From a bacterium (GTDB lineage: Bacteria; Electryoneota; RPQS01): a stretch of 13,622 nucleotides of DNA. Below, piece by piece: positions 666-13,622 of this stretch (within the stretch, counting starts at the first letter, position 1; every line of letters begins with the position of its first letter). Location of the stretch: positions 1 through 13,622 of the forward strand of contig JAHDVH010000007.1 of NCBI GenBank assembly GCA_023382385.1, given 5' to 3'. The notes under the pieces are model-generated. The model saw only the letters and a program-made list of their open reading frames with translations. It had not been told where the DNA came from and made no database searches. The position numbers were made by a program, and so were the translations under genes.

Positions 666-2831
666 ATGCACCGATCGACCGCACCCCGCACTCTCTTTCT
701 TCTGCTGCTTTTGACGGCATTGAACGTCGCGTCTCCTCAGATTGCGCGTGCAGCTTGGTGGCCCTATCCCTTCAGGATTAGTGAACTCCATACGGAAGCC
801 GCAGTGCACCTTGGCCGCGTTTCGCATTACACGATTGAGGTCGGCAAGGGCAAGGTTCCGCTGACTGCGCGAATAACTCTCGAGATGGGACCGATGAGTC
901 CTTATCGAAGCGGGATATATATGGACGATCGGCAGGGTAACGTGATGCTTCAGCGCAATTTTGCCTGGCATGTCTATGTTCCCGCAAGCCGGGATCTCGA
1001 CGGGGACAACGAGCTTGAATTTGTCGTCAGCTACTCGGGGGATACGCTGGCTGGAGTGCGCGCGTACTCCAGCGTACTCAGTTCGGATACGTTATGGGAA
1101 TATGTCCTTTTGGAGTCTAACTGCCGCTGGCGGCAACGCCTGGACAAGTGGGACGTCTATTTTGAAATCGGGCCGGTTGTGAAACTAAGCGGCGACAGAA
1201 ACGGTTTGCTCCTGTTGTGCCAGAGCGGCTTCTGCCAATTGCCGCGAGGGCTGATCATGCTGGACGCCGCGACGGGTGAAGAGATTTGGCGAGAGTGGTG
1301 CGGGGGAAATAACGAGTACGTTCACGAGGTTACTACGCAGGACGGTCAGCGACTCATCGTAGTCAGCACGTCGTCGAGCGGTAACGGCGCAGTGTGGGAG
1401 GGGACGGATGACATGACCTGTTATCTGTATGCGTTACGTCCGGAGACGGGTGAACTCGTATGGCGTCGGTCCTTTCCGGGTATGTTCAGCCATGTGATGT
1501 TCCAGCCGATCACGGATTCCCTCGGCACAACGCGCGAGCTTGTCGCAGTATATATCTCTTCACCCTCCAAAGAAACTCCGGCTGCCTTGATGCGGGTGGA
1601 CCCGCGCGACGGAAGCTCCACGCAAGAGAAGATCTTTCCAGAAAGACAATTCACACCGGCGTTCCAGTTTTGGAAGTCACCGAGCGACGACTCATGGAGA
1701 GTGTATCTTACGTCGCTACCTTCCGAGCTGCAAGTCTTTGACAACAACTTTGAGTTGATTGGCGAGAAGTCCGATGTAACCGAGGTTCTCTGTTGTGGCG
1801 ATTGGGAGCTTCCTGTCGGGCCGGAGCTGCTTGTGACCTCTGTATCCGGCAAGACGCTGTATCTGAACGAGTCGCTGCACGAGAAAGCTCTTCTGGATTT
1901 CAAGTCATACAGGATAACGGAGCAGTACTTCCCCGATCAAGTCTGGCCGGAGCTGATCACAACTGACGGCACTACAATCAAGAGATTGCGCGTAGAGCCG
2001 AATCCGTTTTACTGGCGCGAAGTCGGTGTCCGGATTGTCACACCGCTCGTGCTTAGCGTGACCATGGCGTGGCTGATCGTGTGGGGAGTACGCACGCGGC
2101 GTGCGTATGTGCGCGCCCGTAACGAGAAGCTGGTCTTGGAAGGCTGGGCGCAGACGGCGTCGTTTCAGGCCCATGACACGAAGAAGCCAATTGCCGTGGT
2201 GCAGCGGGCCATCGAGAACCTCGAACTGCGATTGCGAAAGGAACATCCGGAATTCAATGTCGAGCCATTTGTCCGCCGCATGAAAGGCGAGATCTCCCGC
2301 ATGCTTCAAACCTCACGGCAGATTCAGGTGATCAGTCGCGTGACGAAGCCCAACTTGCAGCAAACGAATCTGAGTGAGCTTATCGCGACCACTGTGGACC
2401 GCATGAACACGCTTGAACAAGTCCCCGTCGTGCACGTCAATCCAGACCGGCGTGTAGACGCACAGATCGACTATCGTCTGGTAGAATCGCTGTTAGAGAA
2501 TCTTATCGGCAATGCGATGGACGCTACGCTGCAAGAGGGGGGAAGCGTGCGAGTCATGGCAGACTACGCAAGCGGGAATGGCGGAGGAGTCGAAGTCACC
2601 GTGCTGGACAACGGCAAGGGCATGACGGCTCAGGAGATTGAGGATATTCTGAATTGGAAAGGCAGCCGGAAAGCGGGCGGTCAGGGCTTGGGGCTGCTCA
2701 GCGCGAAGTGGATCGCCGAGACGCACCACGGCAGTCTGCATATAGAAAGTCAGCCGGGAATGGGAACGAAAATTACTGTGCACTTACCCGGAAATGGAGG
2801 TCCGTTATCTCCCGCAAAGACATCATCCTGA
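666..2831 (+). CDS. Sensor histidine kinase with exported beta-propeller-like sensor domain
   Basis: A 721-residue membrane histidine kinase, partner of the overlapping response regulator. Residues 1-29 form a signal peptide (hydrophobic LFLLLLLTAL core, then ARA). Residues of about 30-450 are predicted outside the cytoplasm. They contain blade-like repeats: an FG-GAP/VCBS-like DLDGDNELE at 110-118 and PQQ-propeller-like LDAATGEEIW near 199-208 and LRPETGELVW near 257-266. One transmembrane helix spans about 457-475. The cytoplasmic part has the phospho-acceptor H503 in an HDTKKP H-box, an N-box with N612 and N616, a G1 box DNGKGM at 648-653 and a G2 box GGQGLGL at 671-677, so the ATPase domain looks intact. 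There is no HAMP, PAS or receiver domain. The ATG at 666 is chosen because it gives the signal peptide, although no clear ribosome site precedes it. The ligand is unknown; a beta-propeller could bind a glycan, peptide or metal-cofactor ligand (inference). Confidence 0.93.
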   Translation: MHRSTAPRTLFLLLLLTALNVASPQIARAAWWPYPFRISELHTEAAVHLGRVSHYTIEVGKGKVPLTARITLEMGPMSPYRSGIYMDDRQGNVMLQRNFAWHVYVPASRDLDGDNELEFVVSYSGDTLAGVRAYSSVLSSDTLWEYVLLESNCRWRQRLDKWDVYFEIGPVVKLSGDRNGLLLLCQSGFCQLPRGLIMLDAATGEEIWREWCGGNNEYVHEVTTQDGQRLIVVSTSSSGNGAVWEGTDDMTCYLYALRPETGELVWRRSFPGMFSHVMFQPITDSLGTTRELVAVYISSPSKETPAALMRVDPRDGSSTQEKIFPERQFTPAFQFWKSPSDDSWRVYLTSLPSELQVFDNNFELIGEKSDVTEVLCCGDWELPVGPELLVTSVSGKTLYLNESLHEKALLDFKSYRITEQYFPDQVWPELITTDGTTIKRLRVEPNPFYWREVGVRIVTPLVLSVTMAWLIVWGVRTRRAYVRARNEKLVLEGWAQTASFQAHDTKKPIAVVQRAIENLELRLRKEHPEFNVEPFVRRMKGEISRMLQTSRQIQVISRVTKPNLQQTNLSELIATTVDRMNTLEQVPVVHVNPDRRVDAQIDYRLVESLLENLIGNAMDATLQEGGSVRVMADYASGNGGGVEVTVLDNGKGMTAQEIEDILNWKGSRKAGGQGLGLLSAKWIAETHHGSLHIESQPGMGTKITVHLPGNGGPLSPAKTSS
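2796..2809 (+). promoter_or_regulatory. Ribosome site and probable AUC start of response regulator
   Basis: A perfect GGAGG at 2796-2800, inside the kinase gene, is followed after 6 nt by ATC at 2807. That is where the receiver domain's first strand should begin. No ATG, GTG or TTG exists in frame between 2709 and the conserved acidic pocket. The upstream in-frame TTG (2654) and GTG (2708) lack a well-placed ribosome site. Confidence 0.55.
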
Positions 2832-4156
2832 TTGTAGAAGACGATCGCGCCTTGCGCGAAGAGTTGAGCGAAACGTTCGACATCGAGGGCTATACCGTAT
2901 GGGTTGCGCCGGACTGTGCGACCGCTCGCAGCAAGCTTGCGCAAAATCATCCGGACGCGATATTGCTCGACCTGCAATTGCCGGACGGCGATGGCATGGA
3001 GATGCTGCCGTGGATATTGCAGGAGCATCCGGGGATACCGGTGGTCATCGGCACGTCGCACGCGACGTATGAAAAAGCGGTAAAGGCGATAAGACTGGGC
3101 GCTTATGACTTCATCGAGAAGACAGGCGACCGTGAACAGTTGACTACTCCGATCCGCAATGCGGTTGAAAAGCGCAGACTCGAGCGGGTGCAAGCCGCCC
3201 TTCGGCGCGAACTGCGCGGCGACGTGTATCTTGTTGCGGAGAGCAAGGCAATGCGCGATCTGCTGACTCAGATTGACAAAGTTGCGCCTACTGACGAGAA
3301 GATTCTGTTAATGGGAGAGAGCGGCACCGGCAAGGGGATAATCGCGGATTACATTCAGTCGCAAAGCAAACGTGCGGGCGCACCGTACATCAAGTTGAAT
3401 TGCGCGGGAATTCCGCCGACGCTGATAGAAAGTGAGCTGTTCGGCTACGAACAGGGCGCGCATGCGACTGCTTTTCAGCGCAAGGACGGGCTCTTTCACG
3501 CCGCAGACGGCGGAACTCTGCTGCTGGACGAAATTGGAGATATGTCGTTAGGGACGCAGAGCAACTTGCTGCAGGTATTGCAGGAGGGAACAGTTCGGAG
3601 ACTGGGCCAGAATACAGCTGCAAAAGTTGATGTGCGGGTACTTGCGGCGACCAACCAGAATCTAAGTATGATGGTCAAGGAAAAGCAGTTCCGCGCGGAC
3701 CTGCTGGAGCGGCTCCAAGTCTTCGCCTTTACTATCCCTCCGCTGCGCGAGCGTCCCGAAGACCTGTTGCACATACTGGAGCTGGAACTTCAGTCGGCAG
3801 CAAAACTCTTCGGGAAGCAGCCGCTCAAACTTGCTCCCGATGCCAAAGCACTACTTCTGACATTGGAATGGCGCGGCAATGCACGCTCGGTTCAGTCTTT
3901 TGCCAAGCGATTGACGGCTTATGCAGATGGACAGACGATTGCGGCGTCTGATATCAAGCGGTTTCTGGAGCAGCCCGAGGCGGAGCCAGTAACTTACAAA
4001 TTAGCGAAGGGCGCGTGGGAGCGCGAGTGGTTAATCAGACTCTTGCTTGCGACCGGAGGAAACCGCAGCAAGGCTGCGCAAGTAGCGGACATCGATCCCA
4101 AGACGCTTTACACCAAACTCCGCGATCACGGGCTTGAGGAGTTCTCACCCGATTAG
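2807..4156 (+). CDS. NtrC-family response regulator (REC - AAA+ - Fis HTH) with altered GAFTGA loop
   Basis: A cytoplasmic DNA-binding response regulator, cognate partner of the kinase whose 3' end it overlaps by 25 nt. Numbering from the ATC at 2807 gives 449 residues, normal for the NtrC class. The receiver domain has acidic residues E11, D12 and D13, phospho-acceptor D55, T83 and K105. The AAA+ domain has Walker A GESGTGKG (170-177), Walker B LLLDEIGD with D241 and E242, sensor I (AATNQN) and candidate arginine fingers R296 and R302. A Fis-type helix-turn-helix occupies about 404-443 (TGGNRSKAAQVADIDPKTLY). The sigma-54 contact loop, normally GAFTGA, reads GAHATA (217-222), so sigma-54 activation is doubtful. 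It may be a repressor or a non-sigma-54 regulator, as TyrR-type relatives with degenerate loops are. An upstream start at TTG 2654 or GTG 2708 would add 51 or 33 non-conserved residues. Confidence 0.92.
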   Translation: MSRKDIILIVEDDRALREELSETFDIEGYTVWVAPDCATARSKLAQNHPDAILLDLQLPDGDGMEMLPWILQEHPGIPVVIGTSHATYEKAVKAIRLGAYDFIEKTGDREQLTTPIRNAVEKRRLERVQAALRRELRGDVYLVAESKAMRDLLTQIDKVAPTDEKILLMGESGTGKGIIADYIQSQSKRAGAPYIKLNCAGIPPTLIESELFGYEQGAHATAFQRKDGLFHAADGGTLLLDEIGDMSLGTQSNLLQVLQEGTVRRLGQNTAAKVDVRVLAATNQNLSMMVKEKQFRADLLERLQVFAFTIPPLRERPEDLLHILELELQSAAKLFGKQPLKLAPDAKALLLTLEWRGNARSVQSFAKRLTAYADGQTIAASDIKRFLEQPEAEPVTYKLAKGAWEREWLIRLLLATGGNRSKAAQVADIDPKTLYTKLRDHGLEEFSPD

Positions 4157-4186: not shown

Positions 4187-4227
4187 TGCCAGCGTAAGTC
4201 TTTGTATTTGCGCTGGCATTTTCTTTG
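4187..4227 (+). terminator. Rho-independent terminator of the two-component operon
   Basis: Arms 4187-4199 and 4206-4218 pair over 13 bp (eight consecutive Watson-Crick pairs from TGCCAGCG/CGCTGGCA, then A-T pairs with two G-T wobbles) around a 6-nt loop. A T-rich run, TTTTCTTTG, follows. It lies 31 nt after the regulator's stop codon and separates that operon from the three small genes. Confidence 0.85.
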
Positions 4228-4277
4228 TCCTAAACTCAACTATTCGGACCTGCCTCATCCGCTTTAGACGTCGCCAC

Positions 4278-4490
4278 ATGTCCACGATTCAACACTCCCT
4301 CGACACTCTATTAACGCTGCGGGAAGCCGCGGAGTTGCTGGGAGTTTCCCGCAGCACTCTGCGCCGCTGGGCCAAGCAAGGCGATCTTCCCTACGTCAGA
4401 ATAAGCACGCGCGGAGACATCCGGATACCGCGTGCAGCTTTGCAGCAATTTATTTCGGACCGGTTAAGCCAACCTGAAGAACATTTATGA
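4278..4490 (+). CDS. Stand-alone HTH_17 / excisionase-family DNA-binding protein (first copy)
   Basis: A 70-residue protein consisting almost entirely of a MerR-like winged helix-turn-helix of the excisionase/HTH_17 family. The diagnostic run is LTLREAAELLGVSRSTLRRW (12-31), followed by a wing with ISTRGDIRIP. There is no effector, recombinase or dimerisation domain. Members usually bind DNA as excisionases (Xis) or small transcription factors. No integrase is nearby, so a regulatory role is more likely here. It is 24/49 identical, by hand alignment, to the third gene of the cluster (4723-4935). Its TGA overlaps the ATG of the next gene (ATGA), implying translational coupling. No convincing ribosome site precedes the ATG. 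Confidence 0.85.
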   Translation: MSTIQHSLDTLLTLREAAELLGVSRSTLRRWAKQGDLPYVRISTRGDIRIPRAALQQFISDRLSQPEEHL

Positions 4491-4717
4491 AGAAACTATC
4501 CCAAGCGCCCGAGACAACTAAGTCATCGAAAGAGGCTTCCCAAATCGTCCTGCCGGAGATGGTTGTGCCAGTGGATTGGCGCGGCGCGACAAACAAGTTT
4601 CAAAGGCGGTTTCTCCGCGCCGTGCTGGCACTGCACAAGGGCAATAAGACCCATGCTGCCGAAGCATTAGGCATCGCACGCCGGACGATTCAATTACAAC
4701 TTCATCCACAGGACTAA
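4487..4717 (+). CDS. Stand-alone Fis-type HTH protein
   Basis: A 76-residue protein. About 35 residues of polar, lysine- and serine-rich N-terminus precede a Fis/HTH_8 helix-turn-helix (about 37-72), with the signature GNKTHAAEALGIARRTIQLQ. This is the domain normally found at the C-terminus of NtrC-type activators, here without receiver or AAA+ domains. By hand alignment it shares about 10/35 positions with the HTH of the regulator at 2807-4156 (GN, AA, I, T and L among them). It could be a nucleoid-like factor, or a competitor or partner of that regulator at its sites (inference). It overlaps the preceding gene by 4 nt and ends 5 nt before the next, so the three genes form one transcript. 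Confidence 0.8.
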   Translation: MKKLSQAPETTKSSKEASQIVLPEMVVPVDWRGATNKFQRRFLRAVLALHKGNKTHAAEALGIARRTIQLQLHPQD

Positions 4718-4722
4718 CAGAG

Positions 4723-4935
4723 ATGAACGATGAGCAGTCCTTACTAACCATTCGTCAGGCCGCGAAACTCATGGGAGTCTCCGTCTCAACACTACGTCGT
4801 TGGTGCCGCGCTGGGCACATCGAATCCCTTCGCATAAACTCGCGCGGCGACCGGCGCTTTCAGCATCATCACCTTGAAGCGGTTCAGCGCCCAAGGTCGT
4901 CAGGCCGTCCGAGAAAGGATTCAGCGGTGCGCTGA
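4723..4935 (+). CDS. Stand-alone HTH_17 / excisionase-family DNA-binding protein (second copy)
   Basis: A 70-residue paralogue of the protein at 4278-4490. The core LLTIRQAAKLMGVSVSTLRRW and the wing INSRGDRRF align with it without gaps, whereas the surface positions just after the recognition helix differ (CRAGHIES against AKQGDLPY). The C-terminal tail is basic (RPRSSGRPRKDSAVR) and could add non-specific DNA contacts. It is the last gene of a three-gene unit that ends before the hairpin at 5015-5047. The divergence between copies suggests an old duplication with separate DNA targets. No nuclease, integrase or toxin partner is encoded beside it. Confidence 0.85.
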   Translation: MNDEQSLLTIRQAAKLMGVSVSTLRRWCRAGHIESLRINSRGDRRFQHHHLEAVQRPRSSGRPRKDSAVR

Positions 4936-5014
4936 CGGGGAAAACCTGCTTCCATAACTGCACTATTCGAAGCCAGAGAATCCAGCCGCACAGACGCGCA
5001 GAGACCTAAAGAAA

Positions 5015-5052
5015 ACAGAGGGTTACGAGACATTCGTAACCCTCTGTCTTTA
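5015..5052. terminator. 14-bp perfect hairpin, terminator
   Basis: Arms 5015-5028 and 5034-5047 are perfect inverted copies (ACAGAGGGTTACGA) with a 5-nt loop, GACAT. They are preceded by an A-rich run and followed by CTTTA. It lies 79 nt after the last small HTH gene and most likely ends that operon. It could work in both directions. The remaining 5053-5163 shows a TATATT (5102-5107) that might be a -10 element for the deaminase, without a convincing -35. Confidence 0.7.
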
Positions 5053-5163: not shown

Positions 5164-6507
5164 ATGTTAATTCGTAATCTCCACGCCGCCTATACTGAAG
5201 AGTTTGAGAACGGCCCGATTTGTATCAGGACGGACGGCCCGCAAATCGTCGAAATCGCTCGCAGTCTGAATGCACATTCCGGTGAGGCGGTGATTGACGG
5301 ATCGCATTTTGTCGCGATTCCCGGGTTGGTGAACACGCATCACCACTTCTTTCAGGCCTTGACGAGATGTTTGCCGGGGGCGCAGGACTCCGGCTTGTTT
5401 GACTGGCTGGTGTTTCACTATCCAGTCTGGAAGCACTTCGACGAAGAGATGTTCAGAGCGAGCTTCCGGCTGGCAATTGCGGAACTATTGCTTTCGGGAT
5501 GCACATTCACCTGTGATCATCACTACCTTTTCCCCGGCAGGGTGCAGAATGATAGTCTTGCAATGGAGCTTGAGTGTGCAAGCGAGCTTGGAATTCGTTT
5601 TGCTGCATTGCGCGGTTCGATGACACTTGGGCAGTCAAACGGCGGACTGCCGCCGGATGAGATTGTGGAGCGGGACGACGAGGTGCTCACACATTGCGAA
5701 CGATTTGCGAAGGAGCACCACGACTCCGGCCGCTTCTCCATGCGGCAGGTGCATCTGGCGCCTTGCAGTCCGTTCAATGTCACTGCAGAACTGATGAAAG
5801 ACACCGCAATACTGGCGCGAAAGCTCGGCGTTCGCCTGCACACTCACTTGGCGGAAACGACGGATGAGAACGAGTTCTGTTTGGCCAGATACGGTAAGCG
5901 GCCGTTAGCGCTGATGCAGGAGTGGAACTGGTTGGGACCCGACGTGTGGTTTGCGCACGGGATATACCTGAATGACGATGAGATTGGCCTGCTGGCGAGC
6001 ACTGGAACAGGCATCGCACACTGTCCGTCGTCCAACGCGCGGCTCGGTTCAGGCCGAATGCGTCTGAAAAACATGTTGGAGGCAGGAGTGCCGATCGGCA
6101 TCGCGGTTGATGGATGTGCGTCCAATGACAGTTCTCATATGCTCGCCGAGTTGCGTCAAGTGCTGCTGCAACATCGCTCGAATGACGGCGCGCAAGTATT
6201 GACGGCACGACAGGTGCTGGAGCTGGCAACAGCGGGGTCGGCGAAGCTGCTCGGACGCGACGATGTCGGAAAACTGCGTGTCGGAATGTCGGCGGACATT
6301 GTCTTGTTCGACTGGCATGAACTCGGCTACGCGGGCGCAGCCGACCCGATTGCAGCGCTGTTGTTCTGTGCACCGACCAGACCGCACACGGTAATCGTGA
6401 ACGGGCAGTTGGTCGTTCGAGACAGGACATTACTGAACGCAGACGAAGCTGAGATTGCAGCTCACGGGCGAGCACAGGCTCAAAGGCTGTTAGACTCGTC
6501 GCGATAG
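5164..6507 (+). CDS. Amidohydrolase, probable 8-oxoguanine deaminase
   Basis: A 447-residue cytoplasmic metal-dependent hydrolase of the amidohydrolase superfamily (TIM barrel flanked by a composite beta-sandwich), normal in length. Metal and catalytic residues are in place: H59 and H61 in NTHHHFFQ, H228 and E231 in HTHLAET, H265 in WFAHGIY, D316 in VDGCASND. The subfamily is indicated by stretches I recognise from 8-oxoguanine deaminases: AQDSGLFDWL, LAELLLSGCT, LRGSMTLGQSNGGLPPDEIV and LAPCSPFNVT. That enzyme converts 8-oxoguanine to urate and ammonia, salvaging or clearing oxidised purine. Related guanine deaminases and chlorohydrolases such as AtzB/TrzN-type enzymes are the alternatives. 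One oddity is C318 where relatives I recall have serine (DGSASND). It stands alone between two terminators, and no purine-catabolism neighbour is visible. Confidence 0.88.
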   Translation: MLIRNLHAAYTEEFENGPICIRTDGPQIVEIARSLNAHSGEAVIDGSHFVAIPGLVNTHHHFFQALTRCLPGAQDSGLFDWLVFHYPVWKHFDEEMFRASFRLAIAELLLSGCTFTCDHHYLFPGRVQNDSLAMELECASELGIRFAALRGSMTLGQSNGGLPPDEIVERDDEVLTHCERFAKEHHDSGRFSMRQVHLAPCSPFNVTAELMKDTAILARKLGVRLHTHLAETTDENEFCLARYGKRPLALMQEWNWLGPDVWFAHGIYLNDDEIGLLASTGTGIAHCPSSNARLGSGRMRLKNMLEAGVPIGIAVDGCASNDSSHMLAELRQVLLQHRSNDGAQVLTARQVLELATAGSAKLLGRDDVGKLRVGMSADIVLFDWHELGYAGAADPIAALLFCAPTRPHTVIVNGQLVVRDRTLLNADEAEIAAHGRAQAQRLLDSSR

Positions 6508-7403: not shown

Positions 7404-7673
7404 TTACCGAATCAAGAGCATCTTCTTGACATCGGTAAATCCGTTCACACTGATGGTATACATATACACACCGGTCGAGAGGCTGCTGGCGTCAAACGTC
7501 ACCGTATGACGGCCGGCTTCCAGCTCGCGGTCAACGGCCGTCGCGACGACCTGACCCAGCGTGTTGTAGACCATGATCTTCACGTGACCCGCATCGCGCA
7601 AGTCGAACCTGAGGTTCGTCGTCGGATTGAACGGGTTCGGATAGTTCTGATACAGAGCATAGTTGTCCGGCAG
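7404..7673 (-). other. T9SS C-terminal sorting domain
   Basis: The last 89 residues (1984-2072) begin LPDNYALYQNYPNPFNPTT, contain VKIMVYNTLGQVV and LSTGVYMYTISVNG, and end KKMLLIR. These are the hallmarks of the Por-type C-terminal domain that directs proteins through type IX secretion, usually with later cleavage and surface anchoring. Confidence 0.93.
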
Positions 7674-10600
7674 CGACGGCGTGCTGAACAGCGGAACGGT
7701 TCCGCCTTCAACTTCGATGATTTCGCCGGTATTGTCGAACATGCTCACGGACGTCAGGGCCAACTCGCTGTTGGCCGTCAGAGCACGCGTCACGCGGAAC
7801 GTCACGGTGCCCAGGATCGCGTTGCCTTCCAGAGTGGACCAACCGCCGCAGGAAGCCGCTACGAAGCCGACAACACCGCTGAGACCCGTAACAGGAGAAG
7901 TCTTAGCAAACAACATTCCGTCAGGCGACAAAGCCGTGCCGGTCGTCGAGGTGACGATTTCGAGGGTCGTTTCGTCGTAACTAAGAATCGCTTCCACAGC
8001 CTTCACCGTATTGGCTTCGTTCCCGTACAGGGCGACAGTCACGGTGAACTCGCTGCCGACTTCCATCGCCGCGTCCGCCGGAATTTCCAGCGCAACCACT
8101 GGAGCTTCGTCAAGACGGTTGAACGGACGATACTGCAGCGGGTCAGGCTGAATCATGAATTCCTTCGCTTCACCCACCGGCGTCACTTCCGCATAGTTGA
8201 AGCTGAACGGCACAAGGTCCTGGAAATTGATCAGACCACCATCATCAGGATTGGGAATACCCTTACCGATATTTCCATTCTCAACGGGAGTATTGACCGG
8301 ACCGATGTTGCGGAATCCTCCGGCATTCGTAAAGTAGACTGCAGACAGCGAAGCCAAGTCGTCGTTATCCACGCGGCCGCGCGAGTACGGGTCGCCAACG
8401 TCGTCCGCCGTGCTGAAATCACCCAACCAGTAATTGGTCGAACGATCGGCATTCTGCAGCATCGCAACCGGTGCATTCAATGACCAGTTTCCGCCTGCGT
8501 CCTTGACGAACGTCACGTAGCGGTAAATGTCGCGATAAGCCGCCGCATTACCGTTGCCGTCCACCCACGTGCCCTGTGCATCCAGCCAATAGGTTGTCGG
8601 GCCGTCAACATGCGTGTAGAAATCACCGCGATTGTTGTTGGCACCGTAAGTCGCGGAAGTCACCGTTCCAGTCGGCGCGGTCTGCGTGGCCACCAAGGTC
8701 CAGCCTGACGGCGGAACGCTGGTCACATCGTAGTTGGAGAGGGTATTCCATAGATCATTGGCGTATGCGGGATACTCACCCGACAGCGGACTGCGGTAGA
8801 TACGCATTTCCTGAGCATCCGACCCGGCAGTCCACGACCACGCGAGCCACACACCGAGGTGCGTCGGGCGCGCATCGAAGAACGTCACTGTATTGCCGGG
8901 AGCCGTCAGGTCGATGCACATCGTGAAGGAACCGGAGGCGTCACAATTTCCAGCGCAATCGCAAACGCGCACACCAAACGAGTAGTATTCACCGTTCGCA
9001 GAATTCGGCACGCCGCTGGAGCCGACAATCCAATTCCACAGCGTCGTCGCATCTGCATCGTCAAACGGCCAATTCGCATTGTCAAACGGATCGGCGACAT
9101 TTAACGTGTCTGTTCCGCCAACGAGCCAGATACTCATGACCGAAGGAACAACGGCGCCGCATGGCGTTGCGTTGCCAAGGTAGCTGATGTCGAGTTCGTT
9201 GTCGAGATCCAGATAAGTATTGGCACCGTAACAACCGGTGGTGTCGGGAGCAACGACGGGCGAGGGCGCCGTGTTGTCGCGGCCGACATTTTCCAGATCA
9301 ACCGTCGTGGCTACGTTACATTCGGTGTCCATTAGATGCAGCGTCAGCGTGTTGCAGCCTTCGACCAGCAGGCCGTAGAAAGTCGCGGCGTCAGCAGCCG
9401 ACGGGAACGTCGGAGCGTAGCCAGAGCTTTGCGTCGGACCAAACAAGCCGAACGAGCCGCCGCCCGGCGCGAAAGTCACCCACGCCGAATCGAGATCAAC
9501 CGCGTTGTCCGTAAACGTCGCACTGAAGGCATTAATTAGCTGCGAAGCGTCGCCGAACGCGCAGGTCGCGCTGTTCGCAAAGTTGCTGATGACCGGAGGC
9601 GTGCAGTCCACCTCAATTGCCACCACGCCAAGTTCCAGCTCGTTGACATGATTGCCGCCCATAATGTCGATCCACAACGAGCTCACACCGGTAATGGGAT
9701 AAACACCAGTGGGGGCCGTTACCGTCAAGGGGATACAGGCGACATACTTGGTGTAATCACCCGAGCTGTAGGGAGTTTCGAAGCCCATGTCGACGATGAC
9801 GCAGTCGCCTGTGGCCATTGCGTACGCGCTGATCAGATTTGGATCTTCATTGGCGCCGGGTGTGACAATCCCCAATGGTCCTGCAGTGAATCCCGCAGGA
9901 AGCTGGAGAATGACCTGCAGGTTCGGCAATCCGGCAGTTCCGAGAGTCAAGTAGAGATTGGTTGTGTTGCAATCCGTATTGCAGCCCACGAGATCATCAC
10001 TCAGCACAAAGTTGACGTCCGCGCAGCCGTTCGGGTTCGGATTGCTGTCCACGTTTACAGGTGCGGCGCCCGTGATGACGTAGGTTCCCGGATAGCCCGC
10101 ATTGCTGGTGTAATCTGAATAGCAGTTGCTGTCCCATGTATGGGCCGCCGTGTTGTCGAAAGCGTTGTTGGTGTTGGCAAAAGAGTTGTCCGTCACCGTC
10201 GCGTTGTCAATCGTTCCTCCGGAGGTCTGCAAAAAGACTCCGTAATTCCAGTCTTCTACGACGCTGTTGGTCAATGAAACATCCAGATTGTCACCGGTTA
10301 CATTGGCGCGCACGCCATAACCTGTGGAACCATTTCCGATGATCGTCGCACCGCTAATCGAAATAGACTCATCAACGTCAAGGCTACGTGCACGGTCGTA
10401 TGAGTCTGCATCGACTTCATCTTCGTAGAGCTGTGGCAGAGCAAAGTCACTCCCCAACAGCGCGCCGCCCGTGGACCACGCCAGCACACCGTGTTTCGCT
10501 TCCACAGTAACTGCATTCGTGGCCGTCAAGGTTCCGCCGTTCATGGTGAAACCTGCATCATCGGCGAACACACAGACATGACCGTTCAGCACATTCGAAT

Positions 10601-13600
10601 TCGTCAGGGTCACACCGTCCGTGAACAAGAAGATTCCGGCGGCAGAACTACCTGCGGCTGTAAACACAACTCCATCCACTGTGCAATTAAGAAGCGTACC
10701 GCTCGTCCCGGTCGCATACTGAAATCCCGTCTGTGCAATGATTCCCGTCGGCCCTACTCCTGTCACGTCGACGTTCGTGCAATTCACATGCGTCCCCAAC
10801 CCGGAGACAGACACACCGAGCCGCTGGAAATCCGAAATAGTGACGTCTGTCAAGGTGACGGTATCGGGAGTGGAACTGTGGTTCACCGACACGCCAACGC
10901 CGCGCGCAGAATTGATCAACGGATTGTCGCGGACGCCAATAATATTCACGTTGGTCATGGTGCCGCCGGAGTTCCAGAACGCGACGCCGATAAGGCGATG
11001 ATTGCCGCCGCCTCTGCCGTCGCCGTCGACCGTGAGATTGGAAACATGCACCGTCGAATTATCGAGGAAAAGCACTGGCCGATTCGGATTGCCTGAGGTC
11101 AGATAAGTATCGGGCATCGTTCCTGCAGGTGCCTTGATAATCGAACTTCCGACTCCCGAGCCGATGATGTTCAGATTCGTGTAGCCGATGGCGTGTACCT
11201 GCCCAATATAGGTTCCGGGTGCCAGATTGATCGTGCTTCCCGATACAAGAGCCAATGCTTCCATGATGTAGTTGCTGGCGCCGGATATCGGGCTGTCATC
11301 ATCCACCCAAAGATTTGAGAAGTTGCCGGTATAACCCGGATTGTCGTGAGTGCCGACCAAACCCATCCACGGAGAATAATCCACGGATCCAGTAAATATT
11401 GAACCGAATGCAGGAGCATCGGAACCCCACCAGTTACCTGACGCATTGAGGATTCCGGGACCATCCCAACGAACTGCCTTTACCCCACAATTCGTAATCG
11501 AGTTCCCGTAGATCTTGGTATTCACCGGAAATACTCCGGGCGTGTAGAACTGCCAGACACGAATGCCTTCGGCGACACCGGTAATGTAGTTATTCTCGAT
11601 GCGGGCATTCGTCACATAGCCCAGCAGCTGAATGCCGCGGAAATTCGTGCCGCCGCCGCTGCCGATGATTGTGTTGTGCAGAATACGCGGGGTGACAATT
11701 TCACCATCTGCGGGCGTTACGTCTGCATCATTGCCCATTCCGATTGCGCGCGCGCCGTCTTCAACATTGGTGAAGACATTGTCGGAAATCTCGAAATTCG
11801 TATACTTGCCCGACCGGATGGCGGGGCCGTAGTTCGTTGCGCTGTTGACATAGATTTCACAGCGGTCGAACGTATTGTGGTGAACTTTCTGCAGTGTCGT
11901 GACGTGGTTTGCACTGTACGTCATGTAGAAGGCCAGCCACGAAGACGTGAAGGTGTTGTACTTGACTTCCGTTTCACCCAACTGCCGTTCAAAGAGCAGT
12001 ACGTTGCTGTAGAAGTCGTGTGCGTCGTTGTTGCTGAATTCGACTTTGGCCTGCATCCCGTAGCCTGCAATCAAACCGAAGTTGCTGGCCGGAGTGGGAT
12101 CCGTGTAGTAGCTGAATCCTTCAAGTTCATTATTCGAGATCTTGATCAACGAGGCGGGATTGGAATTGCCCGAGGCCCACATCCCGTTCATTCTGCCGGT
12201 CTTGATCTTGAAACCGTCCACGGTGACATTGCCTGAGGGCAGGTTGATCGTCACCACCGCATGGGAATCGTCAATCGGCACATAGCCCGATGCGTCAATC
12301 ACCGAAGTGACCCCTGCACCTTGCAAAGTCAGCGCCTTGGTGATGGACAAATCCCATTCACTATACGTTCCCGCGCCGCACAACACCACGTCGCCGGCCG
12401 CAGCCCAGTCGATTTCGCGCTGGATGTTCGCACCGATTTCCTTGACGTTATTATACGTGTAGGGCCCACTCATGTAGGAATACGATCCCTGAGCGGTCGG
12501 CGGGTTGGTTCCAAACATGACCTTCTTGTCAAAGGTGTTGTTGTTCCAATAACCCACCCAGTCGAAATCGCCGTAGTTTGCAAAATTACCGCGATGGCGA
12601 ATGTATAACGCCTCGGAATTCGAGAACGTATTTCCGGAGATCACTGCGGCACCCACGCTGTAGACGTACCACGGCACTCCGGATCCGGAGCCGTTGAAGC
12701 TGATCGCCGCCCAGTAGTTCCCGGGCCAATCCATGTCGAACACGTTGTTGATGACTTGGCGACTCGCCACGGCACCCGTATATCCCGCACCGTTCGCGAT
12801 ATCGAGGCTGGTCCCATAGTCGAAGAGGTTGCCTTCAATGTGGTAACTCTGGACGTAAGAGATATCATTCCCCGAATCAAAACGGAAGTCGTTAATGTAG
12901 CACGACATTCCATCCGTGATTTGGCAGTACTTTAGGGTGAAGTCGTCGCCGATGACTTCGACGGTCTTGTTATAGTCCGGACCTGTCTGGAACAACTCCA
13001 AACCGGTAACAGTGATTCCGTTTGCTTCTACGAACATGCCGCTCGGTCCGAACCCGTTGGTGGCGTTCAGTCCGACACTTGCGGCCACCGCGCCGTAGGA
13101 CGTGATCGGCGAACCTACTGCATCGACTCCCTGCAGCGTGACATCGTCTTTCCCTGCGGGGATGAACAAGCCAAACTGGTATGGACCCGACGCATCGAAA
13201 AGGAAACATCCGGGTGTCGCTTCCGTGTAGGAGCCGGGCAGCACATTCACCGTCCCATTCGCGGCGACGGCTGCGATACCTTCCCGAATCGTTGCGAAGG
13301 CGTCCACGCCCCATGTCAGCGTGTTGTCAAACAGGTCGACGCTGGTTTGATCTGTCCAGCTGTCATCAACCCAGACAATCGCCTCCAAGTCAAGGCTGCT
13401 GTTGTCAACGCGAGGAGCCAGCCACGGACCGTTCTGACCATGAATTGCGCTCAGAACAGGATCCATATGGCCCGTCATTCGCGTATCAGTCGTTGGCGCT
13501 GCCTTCTGAACCGGCGCCGCCAACTGTGGCAACGCACCATTGCGCAAGCCGCGCGGAAGATCGTCCACCGCCCAGCTGTTGCCGGCAATCACGAAGAGTG

Positions 13601-13622
13601 CCAGCAAGGTGAATACAAATAA
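7404..13622 (-). CDS. Giant T9SS-exported multidomain surface protein, 5' end outside window
   Basis: At least 2072 residues, numbered from the first codon in the window. The frame is open to the edge, and its start reads LFVFTLLALFVIAGNSWA, part of a signal peptide whose ATG lies beyond 13622. Residues of about 83-1200 are repetitive, Asn- and Gly-rich right-handed parallel beta-helix in three blocks. About 1205-1339 is a beta-sandwich, possibly cohesin-like. From C1340 come two Ig-like segments opening with TPPVISN and NTAPSP, containing paired cysteines (CDCAGNC). About 1574-1720 is Fn3-like (WLAWSW, MRIYRSP). Then follow dockerin-like loops (1744-1755, 1791-1802), a cohesin-like domain (about 1840-1976) and a T9SS sorting domain (1984-2072). 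This implies export across the inner membrane by Sec and the outer membrane by T9SS. The beta-helix could bind or cleave polysaccharide, but no catalytic motif can be assigned. The in-frame TTG at 13607 is not a credible start. Confidence 0.9.
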   Translation of the reverse strand, partial: LFVFTLLALFVIAGNSWAVDDLPRGLRNGALPQLAAPVQKAAPTTDTRMTGHMDPVLSAIHGQNGPWLAPRVDNSSLDLEAIVWVDDSWTDQTSVDLFDNTLTWGVDAFATIREGIAAVAANGTVNVLPGSYTEATPGCFLFDASGPYQFGLFIPAGKDDVTLQGVDAVGSPITSYGAVAASVGLNATNGFGPSGMFVEANGITVTGLELFQTGPDYNKTVEVIGDDFTLKYCQITDGMSCYINDFRFDSGNDISYVQSYHIEGNLFDYGTSLDIANGAGYTGAVASRQVINNVFDMDWPGNYWAAISFNGSGSGVPWYVYSVGAAVISGNTFSNSEALYIRHRGNFANYGDFDWVGYWNNNTFDKKVMFGTNPPTAQGSYSYMSGPYTYNNVKEIGANIQREIDWAAAGDVVLCGAGTYSEWDLSITKALTLQGAGVTSVIDASGYVPIDDSHAVVTINLPSGNVTVDGFKIKTGRMNGMWASGNSNPASLIKISNNELEGFSYYTDPTPASNFGLIAGYGMQAKVEFSNNDAHDFYSNVLLFERQLGETEVKYNTFTSSWLAFYMTYSANHVTTLQKVHHNTFDRCEIYVNSATNYGPAIRSGKYTNFEISDNVFTNVEDGARAIGMGNDADVTPADGEIVTPRILHNTIIGSGGGTNFRGIQLLGYVTNARIENNYITGVAEGIRVWQFYTPGVFPVNTKIYGNSITNCGVKAVRWDGPGILNASGNWWGSDAPAFGSIFTGSVDYSPWMGLVGTHDNPGYTGNFSNLWVDDDSPISGASNYIMEALALVSGSTINLAPGTYIGQVHAIGYTNLNIIGSGVGSSIIKAPAGTMPDTYLTSGNPNRPVLFLDNSTVHVSNLTVDGDGRGGGNHRLIGVAFWNSGGTMTNVNIIGVRDNPLINSARGVGVSVNHSSTPDTVTLTDVTISDFQRLGVSVSGLGTHVNCTNVDVTGVGPTGIIAQTGFQYATGTSGTLLNCTVDGVVFTAAGSSAAGIFLFTDGVTLTNSNVLNGHVCVFADDAGFTMNGGTLTATNAVTVEAKHGVLAWSTGGALLGSDFALPQLYEDEVDADSYDRARSLDVDESISISGATIIGNGSTGYGVRANVTGDNLDVSLTNSVVEDWNYGVFLQTSGGTIDNATVTDNSFANTNNAFDNTAAHTWDSNCYSDYTSNAGYPGTYVITGAAPVNVDSNPNPNGCADVNFVLSDDLVGCNTDCNTTNLYLTLGTAGLPNLQVILQLPAGFTAGPLGIVTPGANEDPNLISAYAMATGDCVIVDMGFETPYSSGDYTKYVACIPLTVTAPTGVYPITGVSSLWIDIMGGNHVNELELGVVAIEVDCTPPVISNFANSATCAFGDASQLINAFSATFTDNAVDLDSAWVTFAPGGGSFGLFGPTQSSGYAPTFPSAADAATFYGLLVEGCNTLTLHLMDTECNVATTVDLENVGRDNTAPSPVVAPDTTGCYGANTYLDLDNELDISYLGNATPCGAVVPSVMSIWLVGGTDTLNVADPFDNANWPFDDADATTLWNWIVGSSGVPNSANGEYYSFGVRVCDCAGNCDASGSFTMCIDLTAPGNTVTFFDARPTHLGVWLAWSWTAGSDAQEMRIYRSPLSGEYPAYANDLWNTLSNYDVTSVPPSGWTLVATQTAPTGTVTSATYGANNNRGDFYTHVDGPTTYWLDAQGTWVDGNGNAAAYRDIYRYVTFVKDAGGNWSLNAPVAMLQNADRSTNYWLGDFSTADDVGDPYSRGRVDNDDLASLSAVYFTNAGGFRNIGPVNTPVENGNIGKGIPNPDDGGLINFQDLVPFSFNYAEVTPVGEAKEFMIQPDPLQYRPFNRLDEAPVVALEIPADAAMEVGSEFTVTVALYGNEANTVKAVEAILSYDETTLEIVTSTTGTALSPDGMLFAKTSPVTGLSGVVGFVAASCGGWSTLEGNAILGTVTFRVTRALTANSELALTSVSMFDNTGEIIEVEGGTVPLFSTPSLPDNYALYQNYPNPFNPTTNLRFDLRDAGHVKIMVYNTLGQVVATAVDRELEAGRHTVTFDASSLSTGVYMYTISVNGFTDVKKMLLIR
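7690..8105 (-). other. Cohesin-like domain in the giant protein
   Basis: The segment opens with APVVALEIPADAAMEVGSEF, continues with VKAVEAILSYDETTLEIV and closes with GNAILGTVTFRVTR. This is the usual order of motifs in cohesin-like beta-sandwiches. It sits directly between the dockerin-like loops and the sorting domain. Confidence 0.6.
8179..8426 (-). other. Dockerin-like double loop in the giant protein
   Basis: Two EF-hand-like loops fit the dockerin type I spacing. DPYSRGRVDNDD (8358-8393) keeps D1, G6, V8, D9 and D12 but has Y and R at ligand positions 3 and 5. NPDDGGLINFQD (8217-8252) keeps N1, D3, G6, I8, N9 and D12 with G at position 5. Each is followed by a helix-like stretch (LASLSAVYF, LVPFSFNY). 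The gap between loops is longer than in classical dockerins, so calcium binding by loop 1 is doubtful. Confidence 0.5.
10030..13380 (-). other. Three-block parallel beta-helix region of the giant protein
   Basis: Three blocks begin with a similar cap. Block 1 starts at about 13376 (VWVDDSW, then FATIREGIAAVAANGTVNVLPGSYTE), block 2 at about 12449 (IGANIQREIDWAAAGDVVLCGAGTY) and block 3 at about 11312 (LWVDDDSP, then INLAPGTY). Each then runs into short turns such as ITVTGLELF, ISNNELEGF, IENNYITG and VHVSNLTVDG. The pattern 'cap - amphipathic helix - G-x-V-x-PG-x-Y - helix rungs' is familiar from pectate-lyase-like or NosD-like secreted proteins of environmental bacteria. Block lengths are about 0.9, 1.1 and 1.3 kb. 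Confidence 0.7.

Follow-up and report, generated by a model that had tools for sequence, protein, structure and literature searches.

Closest described systems

Most bacterial regulators have a sensor or an oligomerization part, whereas the locus described here encodes two bare DNA-binding domains of unrelated fold families that are conserved as a pair. Several described systems resemble parts of this arrangement. BldC of Streptomyces, a 68-residue protein with no effector domain, forms head-to-tail oligomers on direct repeats and is a regulator on its own (PMC5859096). In the crystal structures of lambda Xis with host Fis at attR (6p0s, 6p0t, and 6p0u), an Xis-like winged helix and a Fis-type dimer occupy adjacent DNA and cooperate via DNA shape while barely touching each other, Fis recruiting Xis (PMC7145599). 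TorI figures in the literature as a recombination directionality factor and also as an inhibitor of response regulators (PMC3509656). Finally, NtrC relatives of the HupR/TyrR type, which lack the GAFTGA loop, are not sigma-54 activators by published criteria (PMC3162934).

The small proteins at our locus, denoted HTH17-A, mini-Fis, and HTH17-C, were compared with these systems by sequence and by structure. The AlphaFold models of HTH17-A and mini-Fis have a core pLDDT of about 90. The best fold-search matches of the HTH17-A model are the BldC-DNA structures 6ama and 6amk, followed by HiNmlR, RacA, and Xis; the best E-value (2e-3) is unsurprising because these domains comprise only about 50 residues. 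Profile search concurs, retrieving Pukovnik Xis and BldC, and HTH17-A is 33% identical to the BldC structure over 51–52 columns. Like BldC, HTH17-A is a single winged HTH_17/MerR-like domain without a coiled coil or an effector domain; unlike BldC, it is partnered with a Fis protein and belongs to a different lineage, and both HTH17-A and HTH17-C fall below the cut-off of the BldC subfamily model NF033787 (26.9 and 30.0 bits, respectively, against 77).

By sequence, mini-Fis is nearest to the DNA-binding domains of NtrX and NtrC4, with Fis more distant; the fold search returned NtrC-type domains mixed with Fis, 6p0s/t/u among them, none of the matches reaching an E-value of 0.001. The model shows one long helix followed by the helix-turn-helix (HTH), as in the NtrC-family domains (NtrC4, 3e7l and 4fth; NtrX) and Escherichia coli Fis, without Fis helix A and with a C-terminus shorter than those of its relatives. 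The score against NF001659, the model of the Fis nucleoid protein (helices A–D and an N-terminal beta-hairpin), is 19.0 bits against a cut-off of 99. Unlike the NtrC-family domains, mini-Fis is encoded by a gene of its own instead of forming the end of an AAA+ activator; a literature search for stand-alone small proteins of the Fis family found none. In comparison with the lambda Xis-Fis system, both kinds of protein come from one operon here, without a recombinase, and the Fis-type partner is an NtrC-type domain devoid of helix A; cooperation between the two is presumed by analogy.

We also considered MAD1, the HTH_17 regulator of the methylation-associated defense system MADS. HTH17-A and HTH17-C score 50–51 bits with the PADLOC mad1 model, but HTH17-A reaches only 24.8 of the 80 bits set for the NCBIfam MAD1 model, HTH17-C is not listed by it, and other defense genes were not seen in the analyzed sequence; this identity was rejected on score and context.

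Three small genes next to a two-component system

The analyzed sequence (hereafter, the window) is an entire contig of 13,622 bases from a 2.9-Mb genome in seven contigs (G000). On the plus strand, it encodes a sensor histidine kinase (666–2831) with a HATPase_c domain and a probable PQQ-like sensor region (a weak match), followed by an NtrC-type response regulator of the REC-AAA+-Fis architecture (2810–4156, the start being approximate). The unit of small genes on the same strand is led by HTH17-A (4278–4490), a 70-aa HTH_17 protein of the BldC/Xis-like winged-helix kind, and continues with the 76-aa mini-Fis (4487–4717), a stand-alone NtrC/Fis-type DNA-binding domain, and with HTH17-C (4723–4935), the second HTH_17 protein of the unit, also of 70 aa. 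The first-pass annotation of this DNA, made from the sequence alone, had described three coupled genes, and the open reading frames are indeed found at these positions: the start codon of mini-Fis overlaps the stop codon of HTH17-A by 4 nt (ATGA), and 5 nt separate mini-Fis from HTH17-C.

The proposed domain composition, HTH_17–Fis HTH–HTH_17, is borne out by Pfam scores over the cut-off for all three proteins: 61.4 bits for HTH17-A and 43.3 bits for HTH17-C with HTH_17 (PF12728; curated cut-off 27), and 32.6 bits for mini-Fis with HTH_8/Fis (PF02954; cut-off 22). Counting by eye over the 49-residue domain reproduced the 24 identical residues reported previously between HTH17-A and HTH17-C; over a longer computed alignment, the identity is 29/66. 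The C-terminal tail of HTH17-C is basic, with a GRP(R/K) motif that, by eye, resembles an AT-hook.

Past a strong hairpin located 3' of the unit lies a gene for 8-oxoguanine deaminase (5164–6507; NF006055, 582 bits with the cut-off at 532). The minus strand of the window encodes, at 7404–13607, a 2067-aa protein with a cohesin domain and a Por_Secre_tail, the type IX secretion sorting signal. As noted in the first pass, there is no integrase, recombinase, toxin, or nuclease nearby, and no transposase was seen either in the 13.6 kb that make up the whole contig.

Conservation of the HTH17-Fis pair

In the sister species (genome G001, locus L039), the one further species of the genus that the comparison covered, the order histidine kinase–response regulator–HTH17–Fis is the same as in the window, with the orthologs of HTH17-A at 9591–9806 and of mini-Fis at 9821–10063, or from 9803. 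The identity between the two species is 67% for the response regulator, 66% for HTH17-A, and 47–49% for the Fis proteins, and the trees group the two Fis proteins with support of 96/89 and the HTH17-A pair with 86/83. The codon-position differences, with dS near saturation, amount to pS 0.71 and pN 0.26 for HTH17-A and to pS 0.69 and pN 0.38 for mini-Fis; because such differences between species show purifying selection, these two are genuine genes.

A second HTH17-Fis pair is present in the genome of the window itself, on contig 3 (G000:C3, locus L035), its HTH17 and Fis halves having each been recovered by an independent search of the whole 2.9-Mb genome. A gene placed at random would fall within 750 nt of any of the four mini-Fis genes with a probability of about 0.2%. 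The genes of this second pair are separated by a gap of 207 nt. The closest relative of HTH17-C is the HTH17 protein of this pair (56% identical, support 81/90), and the two share the basic GRP(K/R) tail. At the locus in the sister species, the third gene is absent, and a C-type HTH17 was not found elsewhere in that genome. The parsimonious reading of these sequences is that the HTH17-Fis pair is old and that HTH17-C, a relative of the HTH17 on contig 3, joined it as a third gene.

The claim of a three-gene unit therefore stands in part: the HTH17-Fis pair recurs, in the sister species and on contig 3, but HTH17-C was found once, so that the three-gene set was rejected as a conserved entity. 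Since the pair recurs with synteny, the observations that had been named in advance as speaking against the unit, that is, genes that never co-occur elsewhere or an integrase by related copies, were not made. The HTH17-Fis composition is no one-off, the pair being conserved at the genus level, and because it recurs both in the sister species and within the same genome, it looks like a small inherited gene-control unit and not like phage debris.

With confidence slightly short of even, we favor the explanation that HTH17-A and mini-Fis, each an autonomous mini-regulator, form a module specific to this lineage and probably bind DNA side by side as architectural co-regulators, in the manner of lambda Xis and host Fis. 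This two-gene module would have been inherited beside the two-component system in the genus, with HTH17-C added in the species of the window.

The wider family of mini-Fis and HTH17 genes

The family was compared across eleven genomes, several of which encode stand-alone Fis proteins of the mini-Fis type. A search of 386 genomes delineated a tight HTH17 clade (97–111 bits, the next best match scoring 65 bits) with seven copies in five of the family genomes. Mini-Fis touches four of the seven copies, one comes after another two-component system (genome G008), and two occupy a position where a relative has mini-Fis. One of these apparent exchanges is found beside a conserved trio of genes, CP76-p2-p3, which is accompanied by Fis in G010 and by HTH17 in G003 (the trio proteins are 44–61% identical); the other is found beside an aldo-keto reductase (AKR)-hydrolase pair, with Fis on contig 2 of the window genome and HTH17 in G002 (61–67% identical). 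Although these cases suggest, if held loosely, that mini-Fis and HTH17 share a role or that pairs have lost one partner, a Fis or HTH17 gene occupies the shared position in only three of the seven trio loci (the third case being a REC-Fis gene) and in two of the ten AKR-hydrolase loci, so that the exchange may amount to coincidence or differential loss.

Against the module speaks that mini-Fis occurs elsewhere in the family without HTH17, and HTH17 without mini-Fis, so that each can act alone; the 207-nt gap of the contig 3 pair and the missing helix A and short C-terminus of the window mini-Fis count against it too. Nearly as likely as the module, in our judgment, is that the proteins are independent small transcription factors, a BldC-like HTH17 and an NtrC-DBD-like Fis, each with its own sites, and that the pair is kept by operon inheritance. 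Indeed, most mini-Fis genes and some of the mini-HTH17 genes of the family stand alone, the neighbors of stand-alone mini-Fis being a WYL regulator, RmuC, hybrid kinases, and REC proteins, and BldC acts alone as well (PMC5859096). That the pairing recurs on contig 3 and in the sister species, however, exceeds the expectation for unrelated factors.

HTH_17 is also the family of excisionases, and both HTH17-A and HTH17-C pass the excisionase-type model TIGR01764 (55.3 and 37.4 bits, respectively, with a cut-off of 28.8), so that the genes could be remnants of a lost integrative element, either excisionases or other recombination directionality factors. The contrasting case within the family is an Xis-like HTH17 directly 5' of a probable tyrosine recombinase (L202, 4817–6210, in G010:C108), which is likely a genuine excisionase; this protein, however, is distant from the clade of the window, at 44 bits against 97–111. 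No integrase, transposase, or recombinase was found at the window unit, at the contig 3 pair, or at the locus of the sister species, and searches of viral contigs and of phage records gave no relative of mini-Fis; for HTH17, the viral contigs yielded weak relatives only, and there is one 46% match in a plasmid. A phage or mobile-element origin was rejected on these grounds, in line with the early assessment that an excisionase reading is weak, and given also the purifying selection on HTH17-A and mini-Fis, the remnant explanation is largely refuted and has very little left to recommend it. The annotation 'excisionase family' can thus cover resident genes that are tied to signaling loci, not phage remnants.

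Several further associations were noted in the family. The trio (L040, 4266–5882; L194, 2509–4115; L303–L307) is kept in several genera and consists of a CP76/CII-like regulator and two proteins with no Pfam match, one of 130 aa and one of 215 aa, the larger being a probable membrane protein. A WYL-domain regulator, another conserved partner of mini-Fis, adjoins a mini-Fis gene in both species of the genus (L039, 4241–5606; L036, 6396–7803), and in the sister species, the WYL-mini-Fis genes are directly 5' of the kinase locus. The mini-Fis-type domain is also the tail of short REC-like proteins: L198, L199, L200, and L303 encode proteins of about 210–260 aa with a REC-like N-terminal part and a C-terminal Fis domain of this type. 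Proteins of this kind are conserved across several genera, and in three cases the neighboring gene encodes a probable ABC permease; in L199, which was checked, the N-terminal part has no Pfam REC match.

A putative promoter of the unit and the altered response regulator

The sequence TGGCA-N6-TTG, a sigma-54-type -24/-12 element, is located at 4214–4229 on the plus strand, 64 nt 5' of the HTH17-A start, and at an identical distance in the sister species, taking a TTG start there; because the element was found after looking and the start in the sister species is inferred, this conservation is less significant than the raw product of frequencies would imply. Genome-wide, there are 143 and 210 matches to the pattern, which gives an expectation of about 0.003–0.004 per 120 nt and is some 1.7- to 2-fold over the reversed control; it is not found upstream of the contig 3 pair, which also counts against the module. 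By the GG-N10-GC consensus, the -12 GC is imperfect, with GT in the window and GA in the sister species. A loose sigma-54 scoring matrix gives 1.3 background hits per 265 nt, too many to be of use, and therefore only the strict pattern is informative. The genome encodes rpoN, and, judging by the conserved element, the unit is probably transcribed from a sigma-54-type promoter of its own, immediately 3' of the response-regulator gene.

The first-pass annotation considered the unit to be isolated by hairpins at 4187–4227 and 5015–5052, both of which are real. The downstream one, a near-perfect inverted repeat of 17 bp at 5012–5050 (folding z-score -6.3 against shuffles), is a likely terminator after the unit. 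The upstream hairpin at 4187–4218 on the plus strand (-23.1 kcal/mol, z -7.2 against shuffles), which is followed by a T-rich tract, is a candidate terminator of the response-regulator gene, but because it is absent in the sister species and its 3' arm overlaps the conserved sigma-54-type element, an isolating terminator is only part of the story; the first pass mentioned neither this element nor the altered GAFTGA loop of the neighboring regulator. Direct-repeat operators upstream of the unit were sought as well, without a convincing case, and a shared direct-repeat array was not found.

Under the favored module explanation, the unit would be transcribed from this putative promoter. Mini-Fis would act as a dimer, its two NtrC-type domains together bending DNA, and the HTH17 proteins would bind next to it as winged helices of the BldC/Xis kind, possibly in a row; between them, the products would mold the DNA of promoters and adjust the expression of genes connected with the neighboring two-component system. 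Gene content, synteny, fold families, the conserved promoter-like element, and the altered GAFTGA loop are observations, whereas promoter use, dimerization, side-by-side binding, and the target genes are all inferred here. A combinatorial DNA-binding complex, as envisaged in the first pass, is possible, with Fis and lambda Xis as a close structural precedent (PMC7145599). The HTH17-Fis pair is a small, clean system in which to ask whether proteins can co-regulate solely through the shape of DNA, as has been suggested for Fis and Xis.

In the AAA+ domain of the adjacent regulator, the GAFTGA loop is not intact, reading GAHATA in the window and GSHATA in the sister species. Nine of the ten strong AAA+ activators in the window genome keep a GAFTGA-like loop, the window regulator being the sole exception, and the relatives that neighbor this type of kinase in G004 and G002 have an altered GAFTGA too. 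Judging by its sequence, the window regulator has lost the loop needed for sigma-54 contact; it is likely to act together with sigma-70 or to be a repressor, in which case another activator would drive the sigma-54-type element. In its AAA+ domain with a broken GAFTGA, it resembles the HupR/TyrR-type NtrC relatives (PMC3162934), but it comes from a distinct lineage, and its own sigma-70 dependence is a prediction. A more specific scenario, which we regard as rather unlikely, is a chromosomal Fis-plus-Xis-like pair in one sigma-54-driven operon next to a sigma-54-blind NtrC-type regulator, forming a DNA-shape promoter switch for transcription, not recombination.

The location of the unit also raises the question of direct interaction with the response regulator. 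Contact of TorI with a response regulator is the basis for an alternative in which mini-Fis, through a mixed dimer with the Fis domain of the regulator, and/or HTH17, by blocking the effector domain, would act as modulators. Linkage to two-component systems in the window, the sister species, and G008, and loosely in G002 and G004, is compatible with such a role. However, the C-terminal domain of the adjacent regulator shows only a weak relationship to mini-Fis (E-value about 7e-4), and the two do not group in the tree, by which an origin of mini-Fis as a recent copy of that C-terminus was likewise rejected; moreover, many relatives have no two-component partner. We consider this alternative improbable, and the side-by-side module remains the reading that we prefer.

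A scan of GTDB contigs for relatives of the response regulator by way of common receiver motifs returned distant regulators only. On contig 5 of the window genome, a second kinase of the window type (41% identical) is followed by an apparently decayed response-regulator gene (L204, 6190–6690), represented by short fragments in different frames in which the resemblance to a receiver domain is still visible.
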